Origin: Chlorobiota bacterium
Lineage (GTDB): Bacteria > Bacteroidota > Bacteroidia > Bacteroidales > VadinHA17
NCBI GenBank assembly: GCA_013152085.1
Contig: JAADHC010000041.1
Span: forward strand, 1-59,597
Direction: 5' to 3'
Length of the DNA: 59,597 nucleotides
In this document: positions 42,828 through 52,262 of the stretch, piece after piece
How positions within the stretch are numbered: the stretch's first letter is position 1
Layout of the letters: the number at the start of each line of letters is the position of its first letter
Notes under the pieces: generated by a model
Told to the model about the DNA's origin: nothing
What the model saw: only the letters and a program-made list of their open reading frames with translations
The model's database searches: none
Made by a program: the position numbers and the translations under genes

Positions 42828-45767
42828 TCAATACCTTGGATCCGGCTTTACAGGTAAACGTGTCATTTTTTCAACTTCGAGGCTGGGGAAACCGAATTCC
42901 TCGATAACTTTACCGTAGAGTAGATAAACACCGTAACCGCGGAAGGGGCAGGATCTGAGTACCTGTGGAAAATGTACGGTATCAAAAAATTCTCCTTCAT
43001 CATCCAGCCATGCGGCAAAGTGCATCCATGCTTTCTTTACGGTTCTGACATATTTTATGTTTACAAGCTGACCCACTATACGCACCTGTTTCCCTTTATT
43101 CTTCATTAGGTCACGGGATTTGATCTCATCACGGGAAGCGGTTTTTACCAGGTCAAACCATGTCAGTGTCACCGGAAATCCAAGGAGTTCAATCTCATCA
43201 TAGGCATCTTCCAGTGTGTTTTCTTTAAGCCGGGGTAAGCTGAAACGGGTTTCCGGAACCTGATAAAGCGGGTAGGAGCATACCTCTTTTTTCCTGCCGG
43301 CCAGGAGGCGATGTGCTTCCCAGAGCAGTTGTTTTTTTCCCTTTGCGGTAAACCGGAGTGCCCCGGTGCGAATCAAAACCACAGCCTGTTCAATGCCAAG
43401 TGACACCCGTTGCAGAAAATCCTCAAGGCTCCGGAATGGCCCGCCCCGTTCCCGTTCCGCCGGGATCGCTTTTACCCATCCGGATTCCAGGTTTTTGATG
43501 TGCACAAACCCCAGGTAGATCGTTTTTCCCGTGATCCGGGTCTTTGCATGGCTGTGATTTACACAGGGTAGCTCGATGTCAGCGCCATAACGCCGGGCTT
43601 CGTTTACATACACCCATGTCTTGTAAAATCCCCCGAAGTTGTTGATCACGGCTACTATAAATTCGCGGGGATAATGGGCTTTGAGATAGAGGCTCTGGAA
43701 GCTCTCTGCCGCATACGAGGCCGAATGTGCCTTGGAAAACGAATATCCCGCAAAACTCTCGATTTGCCGCCACACCTCGCGGGTAATCTCTTCGGGATAT
43801 CCCCGTTGCCGGCAGTTGGTAAAAAATTTATCTGCAATCCGCACAAATTCCTTTTTCGAACGGAACTTACCGCTCATGACACGCCGCAGGACATCGGCAT
43901 CGGCAAGGTCAAGGCCGGCAAAATGATGACATACCTTCAGCACATCCTCCTGGTAAACCATCACACCATAGGTCTCTTCCAATTGCTCTTTCATTACCGG
44001 ATGAAGGTATTTGAAATCATCCGGATGATGGAACCTGCGGATGTACTCGCGCATCATCCCCGAACGGGCGACACCGGGACGTATGATCGAACTGGCAGCG
44101 ACCAAAGCCGGATAGGTCTCACACCGGATCTTTTTCAGTAAACCCCGCATAGCCGGACTTTCGATATAAAAACACCCCAGTGTTTCCCCGTTTTTCAGGT
44201 GCTCCTTTACTTTCGGATCTTCCTTGAAGCGGCAAATATCATGCACGTCAATCGTTACATTCCGGTTCCCGCGAATGATCGCTACGCTTTCACGAATGTG
44301 TCCGATACCCCGCTGGCTGAGCACATCCAGTTTTTCTAACCCGATATCCTCGGCGACATACATATCCCATTGAGTCGTCGGGAAGCCCTTCGGCGGCAGA
44401 TCGAGTGCGGCATAGGCTGTAACGGGTTCTTCAGAGATCAGTACCCCGCCGGCATGGATGGTCCGCAGATTGGGAAAACCGGCAAGTTTTTGCCCGATAC
44501 GGAAGATTGTCTGCGTGATCTGATTTTGGTTTCCGGGTGACGAAGGGCTTTCTATCAAGCTGTCAATCTCAGTCTTCGGCAGGCCGTAAACCTTTCCGAG
44601 TTCACGGATCACAGACTTCCCCTTAAAGGTGGATGTTGCTCCCAGCAGGGCTGTATGCTTTCTGCCATATCGCTTAAAAAGATAATCCAGAACCTCGTCC
44701 CGTTCTTTCCACGAATAGTCAATGTCAAAATCCGGAGGGCCGGTTCGTTTCGGATTGATGAAACGTTCAAAATAAAGGTCCAGTTCGATCGGGTCGACGT
44801 CGGTAATTTTGAGGCAGTAGGCAACCACCGAGTTGGCACCACTGCCACGCCCGACATGGTAGAATCCCCGCGACATCGAATAACGGATCATATCCCAGGT
44901 AATCAGAAAATAGGAGGCAAAACCGAGGTTATATATGATATCCAGTTCATGACGGATACGTGCAGCTGCTTCTTTGTTGTCCCTTCCATACCGGCATTGC
45001 AGCCCGTCGTTGGCAAGCTTTGTCAGCAGAAGCTGGTCGTCATGCCTGCTCCCCGTAAAGGTTTTCCTGTTTTTGTAGAGCGAGAAATTAAAATCGAATG
45101 TACAACTGTCCAGTAATTTTTCAGTATGACGTATGCAGTCGGGGAATGATGAAAATGCTTCCCGCAGGAAACCCGGAGAATACAGTATTTCGTCATCGCC
45201 GGCCAGACTGGAAGGATCGAGTTTGCCGAGTAATGTATTGTGCCCGATAGCCCTCAGGTGACGGTGAATGACTTTGTGTGATTCATGTCCGAAGGTTACC
45301 GGCTGTGCAATAACCACCTTTCCGGGTGGAAACGGCAGGTCACGGACGGCATACCGGCGGCGTTGGGATAGCCTGATCCCGGTATATTCGTATGCTTCGG
45401 GAGATCGTTTGGGACAATTCTCCGGTGGATAAATGACGAAAACATTTCGCAACTCCGGGGCATAACGGGGCAGGGGGGTACGTGACAGATTATGCCGCGT
45501 AAGCAGGGCGTTGATCTCCTGAAACCCTGACAGGTTCCGTGCCAGCAGAATATAACGAAGTTTGTCACCGGTACGGATCTCAGCACCTGCTATGGGACGT
45601 ATACCCTGTTCCAGGCACTCCTTTGCAAACGGAAAAATGCCCATCGTAGTGTTGATGTCGGTCAGAGCCATGGCTTTGATACCAAAGGCGGCAGCACGTT
45701 CTGCCAGTTCCTCAACCGGCATGGTGCCGTATCGCAAACTGTAATATGAATGAACTTGCAGGTACAT
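42828..45767 (-). CDS. DnaE-type DNA polymerase III alpha subunit, compact (error-prone type)
   Basis: 979 residues, shorter than replicative DnaE (about 1150 or more) and close to damage-inducible DnaE-type polymerases. N-terminal PHP domain (LQVHSYYSLRYGTMPVEELAERA; ALTDINTTMG; PIAGAEI). Polymerase core with VGRGSGANSVVAYCLKITDVDPIELDLYFERFINPKRTGPPDFDIDYSW; the aspartates of PDFDID are catalytic metal ligands. Later QEDVLKVCHHFAGLDLADADVLRRVMSGK and FSKAHSASYA. A C-terminal OB-fold (KQVRIVGQLVNIKYV) is present, but no tau-binding tail is evident. It sits with a DinB polymerase and an S24 regulator, so it is probably a translesion/mutagenic polymerase. The start codon abuts the heptamer repeat at 45768. 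Confidence 0.93.
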   Translation of the reverse strand: MYLQVHSYYSLRYGTMPVEELAERAAAFGIKAMALTDINTTMGIFPFAKECLEQGIRPIAGAEIRTGDKLRYILLARNLSGFQEINALLTRHNLSRTPLPRYAPELRNVFVIYPPENCPKRSPEAYEYTGIRLSQRRRYAVRDLPFPPGKVVIAQPVTFGHESHKVIHRHLRAIGHNTLLGKLDPSSLAGDDEILYSPGFLREAFSSFPDCIRHTEKLLDSCTFDFNFSLYKNRKTFTGSRHDDQLLLTKLANDGLQCRYGRDNKEAAARIRHELDIIYNLGFASYFLITWDMIRYSMSRGFYHVGRGSGANSVVAYCLKITDVDPIELDLYFERFINPKRTGPPDFDIDYSWKERDEVLDYLFKRYGRKHTALLGATSTFKGKSVIRELGKVYGLPKTEIDSLIESPSSPGNQNQITQTIFRIGQKLAGFPNLRTIHAGGVLISEEPVTAYAALDLPPKGFPTTQWDMYVAEDIGLEKLDVLSQRGIGHIRESVAIIRGNRNVTIDVHDICRFKEDPKVKEHLKNGETLGCFYIESPAMRGLLKKIRCETYPALVAASSIIRPGVARSGMMREYIRRFHHPDDFKYLHPVMKEQLEETYGVMVYQEDVLKVCHHFAGLDLADADVLRRVMSGKFRSKKEFVRIADKFFTNCRQRGYPEEITREVWRQIESFAGYSFSKAHSASYAAESFQSLYLKAHYPREFIVAVINNFGGFYKTWVYVNEARRYGADIELPCVNHSHAKTRITGKTIYLGFVHIKNLESGWVKAIPAERERGGPFRSLEDFLQRVSLGIEQAVVLIRTGALRFTAKGKKQLLWEAHRLLAGRKKEVCSYPLYQVPETRFSLPRLKENTLEDAYDEIELLGFPVTLTWFDLVKTASRDEIKSRDLMKNKGKQVRIVGQLVNIKYVRTVKKAWMHFAAWLDDEGEFFDTVHFPQVLRSCPFRGYGVYLLYGKVIEEFGFPSLEVEKMTRLPVKPDPRY

Positions 45768-45843
45768 GGTTCTCGGTTCTCGGTTCTCAGTTCTCGGTTC
45801 TCAGTTCTCAGTTCTCGGTTCTCAGTTCTCAGTTCTCAGTTCT
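45768..45843. repeat. 7-bp tandem repeat (RGTTCTC, about 11 copies) directly before the dnaE start
   Basis: Ten full copies and six bases of an eleventh of the heptamer GGTTCTC or AGTTCTC, beginning one base from the dnaE ATG. On the coding strand the leader is therefore repeated GAGAACY. A unit of seven bases is prone to slippage. Copy change would alter the leader, not the reading frame, because dnaE begins after it. Confidence 0.95.
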
Positions 45844-45994
45844 ATTTTGTGTATTAACCCTCCGAAGTCTTGGCGAAAGAGGACTTCTTTTTTCTTCTGC
45901 ACTGACGACTCTCCTGCGGTTCGTGTCAGTATCTGCGACCTTCTGCCTTATCAACTTTAGTGTCCGGTTTTTTTCATCGTTCATCGTTCCAGCT

Positions 45995-47296
45995 TCATCC
46001 TGCCGGACGGTATCCGTTGCGTCTGTCGGTAAACCAGCGGGAGAGGTTTTCCGACTCTTGTTGTGCTTTCTGTTGTTTCTCCCCCGGGTATGCATTCCAT
46101 TCTTCGGGTGGGGGAATCCCTACCGCCCGCTGTACGGCCTGTGAGCCAAACCGTTTGCGCAGGCTGTCCATGGTCAGGTAAAGGTTTACCATCTCCGGGG
46201 TATCCTCAAAAAGGTTCAGTTGCCGGACACCCTGTATCAGATGACTGAACCGGACCCCGATCAGGCGGATACGTATCCTGCGCCGGTAAAGCCTGCCGAA
46301 AAGTTCGCGTACCGTTTCGATCAGGACATGGTCAAACGAGGTATAGGGAATCCGTTTCTGCAGGGTATGGGTGTCAAAATTGGCATAGCGGATCTTTACC
46401 GTGACACAGGAGGTGAGTTTCTGCCGTTTCCGCAGGGTAAAGGTGATCTTCTCAACCATACTTATCAGGATATGGTTCAGGTGTACAAGGTCGGTGGTAT
46501 CCTGGTCAAAAGTACGTTCGGTGCTTATAGATTTTTTCTCGTATTCATTGACAACCGGGGTATCATCAATCCCGTTTGCTTTTTTCCAGATAACCATGCC
46601 GTTTTTTCCCATGATACTCTCGAGCATATCCGGCGGGATGCGGCTGAGGACATCAATAGTGGTCACCCCCATCGACCGGAGCAGGTGATACGTTTTGTCG
46701 CCGATCATGGGTATCTTCCTGATCGACAGCGGTGCAAGGAATGGCTTTACCCTGGGTGCCGGAACATCCAGCTCTCCGTTGGGTTTGGCTTCGCCGGTGG
46801 CAATCTTTGATACGGTCTTGTTGACCGACAAGCCAAAGGATATGGGTAACCCCGTTTCGCGGGTGATCAGCCGGCGCAACTCGTGTGTCCACTTCAGGGT
46901 GCCGAAAAAACGGTCCATTCCGGTCAGGTCCAGGTAATGTTCGTCAATTGAGGCTTTCTCATATACCGGGGCACGTTCTTCAATAATCTCCGTTACCGTA
47001 TTTGAATATTTGCTGTATAGTTCCATATCCCCCCGGATCACCATCGCACCGGGGCAAAGGTTACGGGCCATCTTCATCGGCATAGCCGAGTGAACACCAT
47101 ATTGCCGTGCTTCGTAACTGCAGCTGGCTACCACACCCCGCTCCGAAACCCCGCCAATGATAACCGGTTTTCCCTTCAGCCGGCTATCCTGCAAACGCGC
47201 TACCGATACAAAAAAGGCATCCAGGTCGAGGTGGGCAACCTGTCGCCCTGTGCTTCCTTCCGTCATATATCTCCTTACCGGATTACTCATTTCCAT
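45995..47296 (-). CDS. dinB: Y-family DNA polymerase (DinB / Pol IV-like)
   Basis: About 433 residues (Met at 47296 preferred; 47320 or 47266 also possible). Palm motifs HLDLDAFFVSVARL and YEKASIDEHYLDLTG carry the catalytic acidic residues (DxD-like Asp and the Asp-Glu pair of SIDE). ASCSYEARQYGVHSAMPM belongs to the fingers. The HhH region is PLSIRKIPMIGDKTYHLLRSMGV, followed by the little-finger domain. The C-terminal QLNLFED is a beta-clamp-binding motif. It performs translesion synthesis. It lies upstream of the dnaE-type gene on the same strand, 227 bases away, and divergent from the S24 regulator. Confidence 0.94.
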   Translation of the reverse strand: MEMSNPVRRYMTEGSTGRQVAHLDLDAFFVSVARLQDSRLKGKPVIIGGVSERGVVASCSYEARQYGVHSAMPMKMARNLCPGAMVIRGDMELYSKYSNTVTEIIEERAPVYEKASIDEHYLDLTGMDRFFGTLKWTHELRRLITRETGLPISFGLSVNKTVSKIATGEAKPNGELDVPAPRVKPFLAPLSIRKIPMIGDKTYHLLRSMGVTTIDVLSRIPPDMLESIMGKNGMVIWKKANGIDDTPVVNEYEKKSISTERTFDQDTTDLVHLNHILISMVEKITFTLRKRQKLTSCVTVKIRYANFDTHTLQKRIPYTSFDHVLIETVRELFGRLYRRRIRIRLIGVRFSHLIQGVRQLNLFEDTPEMVNLYLTMDSLRKRFGSQAVQRAVGIPPPEEWNAYPGEKQQKAQQESENLSRWFTDRRNGYRPAG

Positions 47297-47353
47297 CACC
47301 TTTCCGAAAAAAATCCGCAAAAAACTTGTTTATTAAAAATTCTTGTTTTAATT

Positions 47354-47394
47354 TTGATTAGTTTTTAATCAATTTTGTGATTATAATATAATCA
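47354..47394. promoter_or_regulatory. Tandem operator: two copies of TGATTA-N5-TAATCA
   Basis: Site 1 at 47355-47371 and site 2 at 47378-47394 have identical half-sites and the same 5-base spacer length, with centres 23 bases apart (about two helix turns). They lie in the divergent dinB/regulator promoter region. Likely the binding sites of the XRE/S24 repressor at 47565. Confidence 0.75.
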
Positions 47395-47564
47395 TTTTAT
47401 AAAAAACAACAAAGACCTTTGATTTTTTATGACAGATATTTTTCATTGACCTGAAAATCTGCAGAACGACCTGCCGCAAAGGAAATCTGAACAGACTCTT
47501 GGTGCAACCTGGTGCTTTGGTGTCTTCGTGGCAGAAACAGATAAATACGGTAAAATTGCATACT

Positions 47565-48395
47565 ATGAAAAAGAACGGCACAAAAGAGATGAAGTATTTC
47601 AGCAGCAACATCAAGTTTCTCCGGAAACGTCGGGGCAGGACACAGGATGATGTGGCCTTTGCCCTGGGGATGAAGCGCCCGACACTCAGCGGATACGAAA
47701 ACGGCATCGCCGAACCGGGGATGGATGCCCTTGTGGCGTTTTCCGGTTACTACCGGATCGCCATTGACACCCTGATCCGTGTGGATATCTCTGCATTGTC
47801 GGAAAGCCAGCTGTCTCAGCTTGAACGGGGTGCTGATGTTTACATCAAAGGCAGTAAACTTCGTGTTCTGGCAACCACTGTAAACCCTGAAAATGAGGAA
47901 AACATCGAACTGGTATCCGAAAAAGCCAAGGCAGGATACCGCACCGGCTATGCCGATCCGGAGTTTATCAGTCACCTGCCTGCATTTCAGCTACCCTTTC
48001 TTTCACCCGACCGTAAATACCGCACCTTTCAGATCAAAGGTGATTCCATGCTTCCCATTCCGGACGGCTCCTGGGTGACCGGGGAATTTCTACAGGACTG
48101 GAATACCCTCGTGAACGGACAGGCTTACGTGATTTTTACCCTGGATGATGGGATTGTATTTAAAATTGTTGAGAATCTGATGAAAAAACACGGCGTACTG
48201 CGGCTGTATTCCCTGAATCCCGTTTACGAACCGTATGATGTTCCTGTGCAGGATATCCGTGAAATATGGAAATTCGTACATTACATCAGTGCCGAAATAC
48301 CCGAACCGGCCATTCCCGAAAACCATCTTTTATCAATGGTGGCCCGGTTGAAAAAGGATGTGGACCGTTTAAACAGGGAAGTACACCACTCTTAA
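47565..48395 (+). CDS. XRE-family regulator with S24 (LexA-like) self-cleaving peptidase domain
   Basis: About 276 residues from ATG 47565 (ATG 47589 is also possible). N-terminal HTH (IKFLRKRRGRTQDDVAFALGMKRPTLSGYENG), linker, and a C-terminal S24 domain. Catalytic Ser161 is in IKGDSMLPIPDGSWV and catalytic Lys200 in DGIVFKIVEN. A candidate Ala-Gly cleavage site lies in EKAKAGYRTG about 38 residues before the Ser, the LexA-like order and spacing. It probably represses the divergent dinB and dnaE genes and itself, and is inactivated by RecA-stimulated self-cleavage after DNA damage. Bacteroidota often use such XRE-S24 proteins beside polymerase genes. A C-terminal helix (LSMVARLKKDVDRLNREV) could assist dimerisation. 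Confidence 0.9.
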   Translation: MKKNGTKEMKYFSSNIKFLRKRRGRTQDDVAFALGMKRPTLSGYENGIAEPGMDALVAFSGYYRIAIDTLIRVDISALSESQLSQLERGADVYIKGSKLRVLATTVNPENEENIELVSEKAKAGYRTGYADPEFISHLPAFQLPFLSPDRKYRTFQIKGDSMLPIPDGSWVTGEFLQDWNTLVNGQAYVIFTLDDGIVFKIVENLMKKHGVLRLYSLNPVYEPYDVPVQDIREIWKFVHYISAEIPEPAIPENHLLSMVARLKKDVDRLNREVHHS

Positions 48396-48506: not shown

Positions 48507-51500
48507 ATGAAAAACATCTTTTTGTATTGCTATGATCCTGATGAGAAAATGTTAAAGGAAATTAACAGGCTTGTCAGGGATTCAGGTTTTACGGCCCGGA
48601 TAATTTCATTGCATACTCCGGAAGAACTCGAAAAAACGCAACCTGAAAGCCATTATTCTGTTTTCCTGCTTTTCCGACGCAATGAGGATTCTGTTTTATT
48701 ATCGTTGATCAGAAAAGTCCGGCAAAAATCACCATGGGTTCCCTCCGTTATTATTGGAGAACCATGTACCGGTGATGAAGTAGCCCGCTGGATAAGGGCA
48801 GGAGCGGGCAGTTATCTGGAATATTCCCGTTTACGTAATTTGCCGACGGTTACCAGTCAGCTGCTGTTGGAAGATCCCCTGAAAGATCTGTCACCGGATG
48901 CTATGCTTGCCCATTATGATTTTTTGTTAAATATTTCCGGAAACCAGCTTTCCATGATTGACCGGAATTATACTTACCTGGCCATTAACGAAGCCTTTTG
49001 TAAAGCCCATCATTTATTGCGGAATGAAGTTATTGGAAAAACTCCCGAAATGATATGGGGTAAAAAAGCCTGCCGTGAAATCATATACCCCAATCTTGAA
49101 AAATGTTTTTCAAGCGAAAAAGTCCATTACCGGGCCTGGTTTGACCTGAAGGAGCAGGGAAAACGTTTTTTTGAAGTAACTTTCTTTCCACATACCGGTA
49201 CGAATGGCAAGGTGGATTACCTGGTCGTTGAGACCCGGGATATCACATCTGACGAAGCCGTAAAAGAAGACCTCCGGGCCAGAAATGAAGATCTTCAGCT
49301 TTTGAATCACTTAAGCAGCATGCTTAATGAAGGAGCTTCAGCAGAGAGTATAGGAAATTATATATGTGAGCAGCTGATTAATATCTATAATAGCTTTACT
49401 GCCAACCTTTATTTTTTCGATGCACAAAATAACCGGCTGAAACCTGTTCGATTTATGCTGGAAGAAGAGGTGGTCAGGGAAATTGAGAAAATTACCGGCC
49501 CGGAAATAAGACAGATTCGTTCCGGCTATTCCGGTTCTTCTCTGCTTGTACAAACCCTTAACGCCGGTAAAATCAGACATATTAATAATACCGGCCGGAT
49601 AAAGAAAATTATAAGTGAATTATCACCTGATAATAAATCCTTACTTGAAAACCTGGACAGGATTTTGGAGATTTTTCCTATCCGTGGTGTGCTGCTGGTT
49701 CCGCTTATCCGGGGAGATGAAAAACTGGGTATGCTGACATTAACACACTTTAAACCATTTGGTAAAGAGGAAATTTCCAGGATTAAGAATATCTCTGTTC
49801 AGTTTACGATTATTCTGCAAACACACAGGGAAGAAGAAGAAAAAAAAGAACAAACCGAAAAGTTACGTCTGCTTTTTGACCAGGCCATGGATGCCATTTT
49901 TCTGCTTGAAAATAACCGGTTTATCGATTGTAATCCCCGGACACTGGACATGTTTAAGGTTAAACGAAATGAGATTATCGGGTGCACTCCTGTTGTTTTT
50001 TCCCCCCGGCTCCAACCCGGTGGGGAAAAATCAGATGAACTTGCCCGGCAATATATACGGAAAGCATTGGCCGGAGAACCACAGGCGTTTGAATGGTTGC
50101 ATATCCGGGGAGATGGTTCTCCGTTTTATGCGCTGGTAAACCTGAACAAAATGGTCATCGGCGAAAAAAAATACCTGCAGGCGATTGTTCGTGATATTGA
50201 TGATTTGAAGAAAGCCTTTATTGAACTTGGCAACAAGGAAAAAGCCCTTCGTGAAGCACAGGAAATCGCACTCATCGGCAGCTGGGATCTCAACCTGATA
50301 ACGGGTGACCATAACTGGTCAGAACAGGTGTATAAGATTCTTGAATATTCCCCGGAAACCGTTCAGCCTTCAAGGGCACATTTATTTACGAGGGTTCATC
50401 CTGAAGACCGAAATAGAATAAAGAACAAAATTGCCGAATCCGTAAATACCGGCAGTAATTATGAAGAATATTTCAGATTGAAAATGCCGGACGGAAGAAT
50501 TAAATACATCCATGGCAAAGGAAAAGTTGAAATATATAATAATAAACCGGTGAGGTTCAAGGGAACAATACAAGATATATCTGTATTGAAAAAAGCCGAG
50601 ATTGAGATCAGGGATCATTCAGCGCAACTGAATATTATTAACCGGGTGAATGCGGATATTAACCACGGAAAATCGATCCGTCAGATTGTCAGGAATATGC
50701 GGCAAAATCTCGCCAAACATTATCCGATTTCTCATATTGCCATTTTTACAAAGGATCTTATTCCGAACTCCTTTTCTTTACTGGCCCATTCGTTTACCAA
50801 TTCCATCCGGAAAAAAGCCGTAGGGGTTATCGGTAGAACTGTACGTAATTTTCAGGTACCTGAGAATGACAGCAACAGTGTTGCGCAGTATTTTTATCAT
50901 CCACGCCTCGGTGTTATTAATGAACCGGAAAAAATTCAACGGTTTTTTGATGATTTTCTTATCCTGTTAGGCGCTAATATTCCCGGCAGGATATTAAACC
51001 GGATCCTGGGAATCCGTTCCCTCATGCTTTATCCGGTAACTGAAGACAAAATGATGAAATATCTGGTGGTCATTACCAGCAAGCAAACGATCTCAGGAGA
51101 AATTGCCGAAAAACTGATTACGCTTACAGAACAGTTACAGGTAGCCATCCGGAAAAAACTGGATGAAATGGAAATGTACCGGCTCTATACTGCGATCGAA
51201 CAAATGGATGAAATTATGTTTATTTCCACCACGGAGGGTTCGATACTTTATATGAATCCGGCAGGACATAAAATTACGGGTATTCCGGTAAAAAATTACC
51301 TTGGAAAAAATACGCGTGATTTCAGACATCCGGATGTTGAGCCAAGCCGGTATGAACAGATCTGGAAAACTGTATTGGCCGGGGAAACCTGGCAGGGAGA
51401 ACTTAAATTACAGTCAAAGGATGAAAAGATCTTATTTGTCCATACCATCATCACGCCTGTTAAAGATGAGCAGGGCAGGGTGATGAATTTTGTGACGTTG

Positions 51501-52262
51501 ATGCGTGATGTTACCCGGGAAAAGGAGATGCAGCATTTTATGCAGCGATCGCAAAAACTGGAGATGATCGGTCGTTTTGCCGGTGGCCTTGCACATGACT
51601 TTAACAATATCCTGGCCACCATGATGGGCTACAGTGATATGGTAAGGGATGAACTTTCCGGGGACAATAAAGCTGTGGAATATCTGAAAAAACTGAAAAA
51701 TTCCGGAATTAAGGCAAGAGAGCTGATACAACAGTTACTTGCATTTAACCGCGGCATAGAGCCGCAAAAAACCAGATTTTCACCATTACAGATAGTGCAG
51801 GAATCATTGGATTTGTTAAAACCTCAGATTTCAAAACAGATACAGATTGATGTCGCTGGTATTGATCAGGATGTTATGCCGGAGGCAGACCCCGTACAAT
51901 TCAAACAGGTTGTCTTAAATCTGCTCACCAATGCCGTGTATGCCGTTGAAAAGAAAAAGGATGGGATAATCCGGATAACCGGAAACCTTGTAGTGGCAGG
52001 CCCGTCCTCAACTGTCAAAGGTCTCGGGGAAGAAAAGGGTTTATTTTATTGTTTTGCGGTAGCCGATAATGGTGTCGGTATGGAAAAAAACATGCTGGAA
52101 CAAATTTTCGAACCGTTTTTTACCACCCGCCCGGTCGGAAAAGGATCGGGAATGGGTTTATCTGTAGTTTATGGAATCATTGCCACCCATAACGGGAAGA
52201 TATTTGTTGATAGTAAACCCGGAAATGGAACCGCTTTCACCGTTTGTCTTCCTTATCATTAG
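48507..52262 (+). CDS. Multi-PAS/GAF hybrid-type sensor histidine kinase
   Basis: 1251 residues without a clear membrane helix, so cytoplasmic. An N-terminal receiver-like domain (1-125) lacks a convincing phospho-Asp. Then PAS (about 145-260; IDRNYTYLAINEAFCKAH), GAF (about 270-445), PAS (455-575), PAS with PAC (590-710; GSWDLNLITGDHNWSEQVYKILEYSPE), GAF-like (725-900) and PAS (910-1020; GSILYMNPAGHKITGIP). HisKA H-box RFAGGLAHDFNNILATMMGY has its phospho-His near 1030; HATPase_c has NLLTNAVYAV, DNGVGM and GKGSGMGLSVVYGI. It senses several intracellular cues (ligands, redox or light cannot be told apart). The single-domain response regulator starting 138 bases later is the likely partner. 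Confidence 0.92.
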   Translation: MKNIFLYCYDPDEKMLKEINRLVRDSGFTARIISLHTPEELEKTQPESHYSVFLLFRRNEDSVLLSLIRKVRQKSPWVPSVIIGEPCTGDEVARWIRAGAGSYLEYSRLRNLPTVTSQLLLEDPLKDLSPDAMLAHYDFLLNISGNQLSMIDRNYTYLAINEAFCKAHHLLRNEVIGKTPEMIWGKKACREIIYPNLEKCFSSEKVHYRAWFDLKEQGKRFFEVTFFPHTGTNGKVDYLVVETRDITSDEAVKEDLRARNEDLQLLNHLSSMLNEGASAESIGNYICEQLINIYNSFTANLYFFDAQNNRLKPVRFMLEEEVVREIEKITGPEIRQIRSGYSGSSLLVQTLNAGKIRHINNTGRIKKIISELSPDNKSLLENLDRILEIFPIRGVLLVPLIRGDEKLGMLTLTHFKPFGKEEISRIKNISVQFTIILQTHREEEEKKEQTEKLRLLFDQAMDAIFLLENNRFIDCNPRTLDMFKVKRNEIIGCTPVVFSPRLQPGGEKSDELARQYIRKALAGEPQAFEWLHIRGDGSPFYALVNLNKMVIGEKKYLQAIVRDIDDLKKAFIELGNKEKALREAQEIALIGSWDLNLITGDHNWSEQVYKILEYSPETVQPSRAHLFTRVHPEDRNRIKNKIAESVNTGSNYEEYFRLKMPDGRIKYIHGKGKVEIYNNKPVRFKGTIQDISVLKKAEIEIRDHSAQLNIINRVNADINHGKSIRQIVRNMRQNLAKHYPISHIAIFTKDLIPNSFSLLAHSFTNSIRKKAVGVIGRTVRNFQVPENDSNSVAQYFYHPRLGVINEPEKIQRFFDDFLILLGANIPGRILNRILGIRSLMLYPVTEDKMMKYLVVITSKQTISGEIAEKLITLTEQLQVAIRKKLDEMEMYRLYTAIEQMDEIMFISTTEGSILYMNPAGHKITGIPVKNYLGKNTRDFRHPDVEPSRYEQIWKTVLAGETWQGELKLQSKDEKILFVHTIITPVKDEQGRVMNFVTLMRDVTREKEMQHFMQRSQKLEMIGRFAGGLAHDFNNILATMMGYSDMVRDELSGDNKAVEYLKKLKNSGIKARELIQQLLAFNRGIEPQKTRFSPLQIVQESLDLLKPQISKQIQIDVAGIDQDVMPEADPVQFKQVVLNLLTNAVYAVEKKKDGIIRITGNLVVAGPSSTVKGLGEEKGLFYCFAVADNGVGMEKNMLEQIFEPFFTTRPVGKGSGMGLSVVYGIIATHNGKIFVDSKPGNGTAFTVCLPYH

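Follow-up and report, generated by a model that had tools for sequence, protein, structure and literature searches.

The window analyzed here, a 59,597-nucleotide stretch of DNA from Chlorobiota bacterium (assembly GCA_013152085.1, contig JAADHC010000041.1), harbors a divergent gene module (42828-48395, both strands) that, judged from its sequence, is in all likelihood a self-contained DNA-damage mutagenesis switch, with operator binding, repressor cleavage and induction as its predicted properties. A regulator of the non-canonical LexA type faces the polymerase genes dinB and dnaE2, and these mutation-prone polymerases are very probably made only upon DNA damage. The fixed register of two palindromic operators, their overlap with promoter elements, the association of the pair with the regulator gene and the SOS-type genes that it fronts together argue for a damage switch that is old, centred on mutagenesis and equipped with an operator class of its own. 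To the left, dinB (45995 to about 47290, minus strand), a Y-family polymerase gene recognized by Pfam PF00817 and its active-site motif, is followed by the gene for a DnaE2-like C-family polymerase of 979 aa (42828-45767, minus strand; Pfam, NCBIfam and alignment to Taq DnaE). An alternative, longer open reading frame (ORF) with a TTG start extends dinB to 47320. To the right, the regulator gene (47589-48395, plus strand, 268 aa; Pfam HTH_3 and Peptidase_S24) lies in a full open frame of 47499-48395, and a bidirectional control region spans 47290-47589. The limits of the module in the initial annotation agree with the ORF list and its Pfam matches.

The control region contains two exact palindromes of the form TGATTA-N5-TAATCA, as the initial annotation had it: operator 1 (TGATTA-GTTTT-TAATCA, TGATTAGTTTTTAATCA, 47355-47371, unstranded) and operator 2 (TGATTA-TAATA-TAATCA, TGATTATAATATAATCA, 47378-47394, unstranded), with 0 mismatches each and 23 bp from start to start. 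A genome scan, proposed with that annotation, identifies the pair as the sole exact copies of the motif in the 3.38-Mb genome. It is matched with one mismatch at 12 further places, two of them upstream of a PBP-like/GCV_H protein and of a DEAD-box helicase. Because the other 10 are flagged inside ORFs (one, L153, only at the first codon), the idea of a wide regulon in the genome was set aside. At the recA locus the best operator match has 3 mismatches, and the single SRAP locus has no match better than 3 mismatches. Two alternative dyads, GATAC-N7-GTATC and GACAC-N7-GTGTC, were discarded, as by reading they fall at the dinB start, on codons of a conserved DAFFVS-type stretch.

The spacing of the two operators is conserved among relatives. 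In 72 loci (regulator at least 56% identical, 200 bp upstream, pair defined as at most 3 mismatches of 24, offsets 17-44, 20 shuffles per region), the pair occurs at offset 23 in 46 loci, at offset 24 in 4 and at each other offset in 0-3, while the shuffle mean is 0 at every offset. Scanning the whole intergenic region between dinB and the regulator (66 loci, regulators at least 58.5% identical) recovers the pair in 56 loci, 50 at 23 bp and 6 at 24 bp. The 10 misses comprise two contigs that end early, six degenerate pairs (4-5 mismatches) and two loci (L056, L067) that seem truly different. Several loci are from the same organisms, so these counts, like the gene-arrangement, 71-locus and recognition-helix counts below, overstate independence; after removal of near-copies (proteins less than 93% identical in an unaligned, position-by-position comparison), 38 of 43 loci hold the pair at 22-24 bp. 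In Prolixibacteraceae the half-site varies to TGATTG and the best register is 24 bp. Many of the relatives are recorded as "Bacteroidales bacterium", others as Prolixibacteraceae and Marinilabiliaceae (NCBI: Marinilabiliales), names which suggest that the window is from Bacteroidales in the broad sense. The gene arrangement is also recurrent: dinB lies divergently within 900 bp in 54 of 74 loci (regulator at least 50% identical, 1400 bp upstream), and dnaE comes next after dinB in 18 of the 31 loci with 3500 bp of upstream sequence. In one locus (L163) the gene divergent from the regulator is SRAP (PF02586, E 7e-42) in place of dinB, and the pair in front of it has one mismatch. Divergent from the regulator homolog of Natronoflexus (L068) is a DUF1508 (PF07411) protein.

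The operators are interlocked with promoter elements. Among 34 loci aligned on operator 1 (DNA less than 80% identical, all selected for having the pair), TAnnTTTG starts at -6 in every locus and overlaps operator 1, and TTG occurs at -29 or -28 in 31. This TAnnTTTG/TTG consensus is that of the Bacteroidetes -7 and -33 elements, as given in the available excerpt of PMC7366714. In the window, the predicted regulator promoter (47326-47356, plus strand) comprises TTG at 47326-47328, an N20 spacer and the -7 box TAATTTTG at 47349-47356, and is of this Bacteroidetes type. The spacer of operator 2 is nearly invariant and reads TATATT[A/G] on the opposite strand, where it may be the -7 element of dinB. 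A minus-strand TTG at +57/+58 is found in 21 of the 34 loci and lies 19 nt from this element in the window. The putative dinB promoter (47383-47412, minus strand; TTG 47412-47410, N19, TATATTAT 47390-47383) matches the -33/-7 pattern less well and is the weaker half of the arrangement. With dinB transcription starting there, the promoters would overlap and point toward each other, and a single repressor pair would cover both -7 elements. Scanning for sigma-70 promoters gave no excess over chance (3 found vs. 3.4 in shuffles). The regulator might activate instead of repressing, or the two sites might serve two promoters independently and without cooperativity; activation by non-canonical LexA was left open for want of non-cleavable mutants, according to the excerpt of the article concerned (Sanchez-Osuna et al., 2021, PMC8565304). 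This is very improbable here, as operator 1 lies over the -7 box in 34/34 loci, which is the position of a repressor, and the two sites keep a constant spacing of 23 (sometimes 24) bp.

Across the window's order, the pair follows the regulator. The survey covers 295 genomes and a 40-bp pattern (at most 3 mismatches, 23-bp register; 24-bp registers are invisible to it), which is found in 81 genomes, with the reversed pattern in 3. A regulator homolog (E <= 1e-20) is present in 128 genomes, part of them with distant homologs (34-50% identity), and the pair occurs in 78 of these 128 vs. 3 of the 167 regulator-negative genomes (Fisher's p = 8e-33, a value that treats the genomes as independent, though they are not). 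Two of the latter three (G636, G639) have the pair before dnaE2. The total is 104 pairs, 14 in a single genome (G501) and 90 elsewhere, of which 69 were classified, accepting dinB, dnaE2 or SRAP up to 900 bp away; 43 were judged from the surrounding DNA and, among the other 26, 23 by distance to the regulator alone (less than 700 bp). Altogether 66 of the 69 front the regulator, dinB, dnaE2 or SRAP (G418, at dinB, included), three are unexplained (G563, G556 C33, G648 C468), and two listed places in G489 overlap. Away from the regulator, nine classified pairs lie at dnaE2 alone, seven at dinB alone (G418 included) and two at SRAP alone; Pfam confirms eight sampled neighbors of unlinked pairs (3 dnaE, 3 dinB, 2 SRAP). 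None of the 43 pair loci examined among the 69 contains recA. The link between operator, regulator and polymerase genes appears strong at the sequence level, and the earlier proposal of a private paired operator gains from the comparative data on register, promoter overlap and linkage to the regulator and polymerase genes.

The regulator is of the LexA-like S24 kind that the initial annotation proposed, to judge from its Pfam domains, its catalytic dyad and its fold matches to LexA and CI. It contains a helix-turn-helix (HTH) domain (PF01381, HTH_3, E 3.6e-13) and Peptidase_S24, and no winged-HTH Pfam match appears at E <= 0.001, HTH_3 standing in place of the canonical LexA domain. Numbered from the family-wide start, ATG 47589, the dyad is Ser153/Lys192 and the candidate cleavage site Ala115-Gly116; the Ser161/Lys200 given before are the same residues counted from ATG 47565. 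In an alignment of 78 sequences (the window regulator plus 77 of the remaining 111 rows of the tree, picked for spread), Ser153 and Lys192 are invariant (78/78), and the predicted Ala-Gly site also holds, each residue being kept in at least 90%. The regulator is probably self-cleaving. An AlphaFold model (predicted local distance difference test, 85.2; predicted template modeling score, 0.57) shows a helical HTH domain (about residues 1-67) together with an S24 domain and, at residues 244-267, a terminal helix. Its S24 part matches Thermotoga LexA (Z 13.3, root-mean-square deviation (rmsd) 2.5, 119 residues) and the C-terminal domain of lambda repressor (Z 10.3-11.0; at Z 10.3, rmsd 3.6 over 94 residues), and its N-terminal part the HTH of P22 c2 (Z 9.9, rmsd 1.5, 65 residues), with ImmR also at Z about 10. 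The best sequence match of the HTH among solved structures is ImmR, the repressor of ICEBs1. This match, and the fact that the pair marks a single promoter in the window genome, would suit a captured repressor of a phage or an integrative and conjugative element that controls dinB locally and responds to some signal other than RecA or DNA damage. Such an origin of the inducing signal is improbable in view of the conserved dyad and Ala-Gly site and of targets that, across the order, are translesion or SOS-associated genes, SRAP included. Moreover, the regulator, the only S24 match in the window genome, has homologs in 31 of 35 other genomes of the family as well as in 128 of 295 of the order, so it looks like an old resident gene.

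Recognition helix and operator appear to change together, although shared ancestry is uncontrolled in this comparison and some SGYEN homologs have no site in the 300 bp upstream. Regulators with the TGATTA-N5-TAATCA operator mostly carry KR[SP]T[LIY]SGYEN, those of Prolixibacteraceae KRSTLNNYEN, the group with CTAA-N5-TTAG mostly KRSL[VIL]GAYEE, and three of four regulators with GATAC-N5-GTATC carry SRVRY[SA]KYED. In a quick tree of 112 homologs with many open forks (144 rows before filtering; proteins under 215 aa dropped; L078 and L081, whose starts are missing, left out), operator labels need 21 changes vs. a shuffled mean of 53. The window regulator and the CTAA-N5-TTAG genes fall on separate branches (Shimodaira-Hasegawa-like approximate likelihood ratio test 87 and 93, amid weak or open forks and with the published reference proteins outside the tree). 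GGA-N5-TCC has few matches, which are scattered and tied to no clade. CTAA-N5-TTAG boxes are likewise paired, at 22-23 bp, in family f28 (L173, L182, L185, L186, L188, L191), which hints that regulators of this kind may commonly use double operators. The GATAC-N5-GTATC form occurs in family f29 (L141, L174, L187), and in L141 and L174 it is present twice, at a distance of 33 bp.

The two polymerases are of the Y and C families. DinB, the sole Y-family (PF00817) match in the window genome, keeps the SIDEHYLD active-site motif and has a QLNLF clamp motif, and looks like an active Y-family polymerase. The strict QLNLF-type expression matches 26 of 71 DinB homologs, many of the rest reading QLNMF or similar. 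The DinB tail resembles the N-terminus of RecA from the same genome (LYLTMDSLRKRFG vs. LQLTIDKIEKGFG; an equal score in 1 of 2000 shuffles), and an expression for this tail matches 67 of 71 homologous DinB loci, redundant loci included. The DnaE2-like protein is one of two DnaE proteins in the genome, the other being an open frame of 1168 codons. Aligned to Taq DnaE, it retains the PDxD and KLD positions, whose Asp residues we take to be those of the polymerase site, and its first PHP His is replaced by Gln (LQVH). It scores 504 bits against the error-prone NCBIfam model PRK05672, below the cut-off of 939, and is also below the cut-off of the replicative NCBIfam model; "DnaE2-like" is therefore the safe label. 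No imuA-like ORF lies between or beside dinB and dnaE2 in the ORF list, and the single PF00154 match in the genome is RecA itself, a scan that may miss a diverged ImuA; the absence of ImuA noted earlier is in this sense borne out for the neighborhood. Between dnaE2 and dinB, abutting the dnaE2 start codon, is an array of the heptamer GTTCTCA (45769-45843, 10.7 copies), which could vary dnaE2 expression or separate dnaE2 from dinB. Immediately after the regulator gene, and in the same orientation, comes a gene for a 1251-aa multi-PAS sensor histidine kinase (48507-52262), with no established link to the switch.

Several observations weigh against a switch of this scope. The 40-bp pair is present once in the window genome, so it is not replicated there. 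Five of the 43 filtered loci have no recognizable pair, and 50 of the 128 regulator-positive genomes have none at up to 3 mismatches, some of the 128 having distant homologs and 24-bp registers being missed. The gap between dinB and dnaE2 measures 227 bp and holds a 75-bp tandem repeat, so their presumed co-transcription is not assured. Among 18 exact single sites in other genomes of the family (part of those listed), no shared gene is fronted and 10 lie inside ORFs, one of these within a recA coding sequence (L211, the only locus with recA among those searched for it, from L157 on); 10 neighbors were scanned. One genome has an exact single site (L202, at 1821) inside the ORF that precedes a DNA alkylation repair gene (PF08713), at a distance of 245 bp from that gene. 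Because of this site, and because the order-wide survey looked for pairs, a mutagenesis-only regulon is a claim on pairs. Lastly, 13 of the 14 pairs of G501 lie off the regulator, with unrelated flanks and a likeness that ends near the 40-bp edges; 12 of the 14 loci (L247-L260) have the pair at 1501-1540, and a genome of the same genus (G599) has one pair. Of 10 neighbors scanned, 7 have a Pfam match, none SOS (SmpB, ATP synthase A and carbamoyltransferase are among them), so not every such pair is an SOS operator. These copies resemble either a dispersed repeat of operator-like form or a regulon that has expanded. Such dispersal, and AT-rich dyads able to form hairpins, might suggest that the palindromes are bidirectional terminators or structural repeats and not operators at all. 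This is scarcely credible for a pair with a fixed position relative to the promoter boxes, which tracks the regulator gene (78/128 vs. 3/167) as well as unlinked dinB and dnaE2 starts.

The damage switch would work as follows. A CI-like S24 repressor of the non-canonical LexA type would sit on the two palindromes as two dimers, presumably cooperatively, much as OR1-OR2 of lambda form a phase-locked double operator. Because the palindromes would cover the -7 elements of two putative overlapping, face-to-face promoters, that of the repressor and that of dinB-dnaE2, one bound pair would silence both. In damaged cells, the RecA filament would prompt the repressor to cut itself at Ala115-Gly116 through Ser153/Lys192, and both promoters would open. 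DinB would then dock on the clamp, and perhaps on RecA via its RecA-like tail, and together with DnaE2, possibly as a complex, would carry out translesion synthesis.

The kind of regulator, the divergent layout and the polymerase pair are already published. For the non-canonical LexA of Bacteroidetes, two main operator motifs were recovered, GGA-N5-TCC and CTAA-N5-TTAG, neither of which occurs within 400 bp upstream of the regulator in the window; a relative in E. anophelis, encoded opposite a gene for an error-prone polymerase, binds a palindrome of its own, TTAC-N5-GTAA, and is mitomycin-inducible (Sanchez-Osuna et al., 2021, PMC8565304, here and below as excerpted). The window regulator resembles these proteins in its CI-like HTH, its S24 domain with Ser-Lys dyad and Ala-Gly site, and a terminal helix absent from LexA and CI. 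Autoregulatory arm-N5-arm palindromes, there sometimes in two or more copies, and dinB, there often in an operon with the gene for the polymerase III alpha subunit, are further likenesses. In contrast, TGATTA-N5-TAATCA differs from all three of those operators, and the recognition helix differs as well. Moreover, the window-type regulator occurs in a group that many records call Bacteroidales, and the excerpted text (PMC8565304) makes no mention of face-to-face promoters covered by a pair in fixed register. The initial annotation held the operator to be unlike the SOS boxes of E. coli and Gram-positive bacteria. This is right for the sequence, but the arm-N5-arm layout is shared with the published Bacteroidetes boxes. 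Its parallel with lexA-imuA-imuB-dnaE2 cassettes, with DinB in place of ImuB, likewise stands as to layout, an S24 regulator beside a Y-family protein and a second DnaE. Unlike in that cassette, no ImuA is found, the Y-family protein looks active and the regulator is without the winged-HTH LexA domain. The pairing itself is not new, having been published as PolY2-DnaE2, a putative mutasome of Bacteroidetes without ImuA and with a motif like the RecA N-terminus (Timinskas and Venclovas, 2019, PMC6511836, as excerpted). The window pair shares with it an active-looking Y-family polymerase beside a second DnaE, no ImuA found and the RecA-like tail, but the polymerases are the subject of that work, and its excerpted text does not treat this regulator and operator. 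FddR of Francisella (2026, PMC13148647, as excerpted) is also a phage-like S24 repressor that acts on itself and on a gene divergent from it (dinB in two species). However, its motif is GTG-N11-CAC, and it is placed with lambdoid repressors, apart from the Bacteroidetes regulators, and so is an analogue. What appears to be new is the operator sequence and its order-wide pairing: the TGATTA-N5-TAATCA operator, the locked pairing and their presence in the window's order were not found in the open-licence PubMed Central literature, a search that did not cover the supplement of PMC8565304.

On balance we consider it probable that the damage response of Bacteroidales has shrunk to inducible mutagenesis alone. 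In this reading, a phage-type repressor that was captured, and that uses a third class of SOS box as a phase-locked double operator, would control only itself, dinB, dnaE2 and sometimes SRAP, leaving recA and the repair genes outside, while genes unlinked from the regulator would each keep a double operator of their own. Both ortholog groups of non-canonical LexA were reported absent from Bacteroidales in the excerpted text of PMC8565304, whereas a regulator of this type is widespread (128/295) in the window's order. The system offers a directly testable regulon and a case in which the recognition helix appears to change in step with the operator. In it, nature may also have uncoupled inducible mutagenesis from inducible repair.

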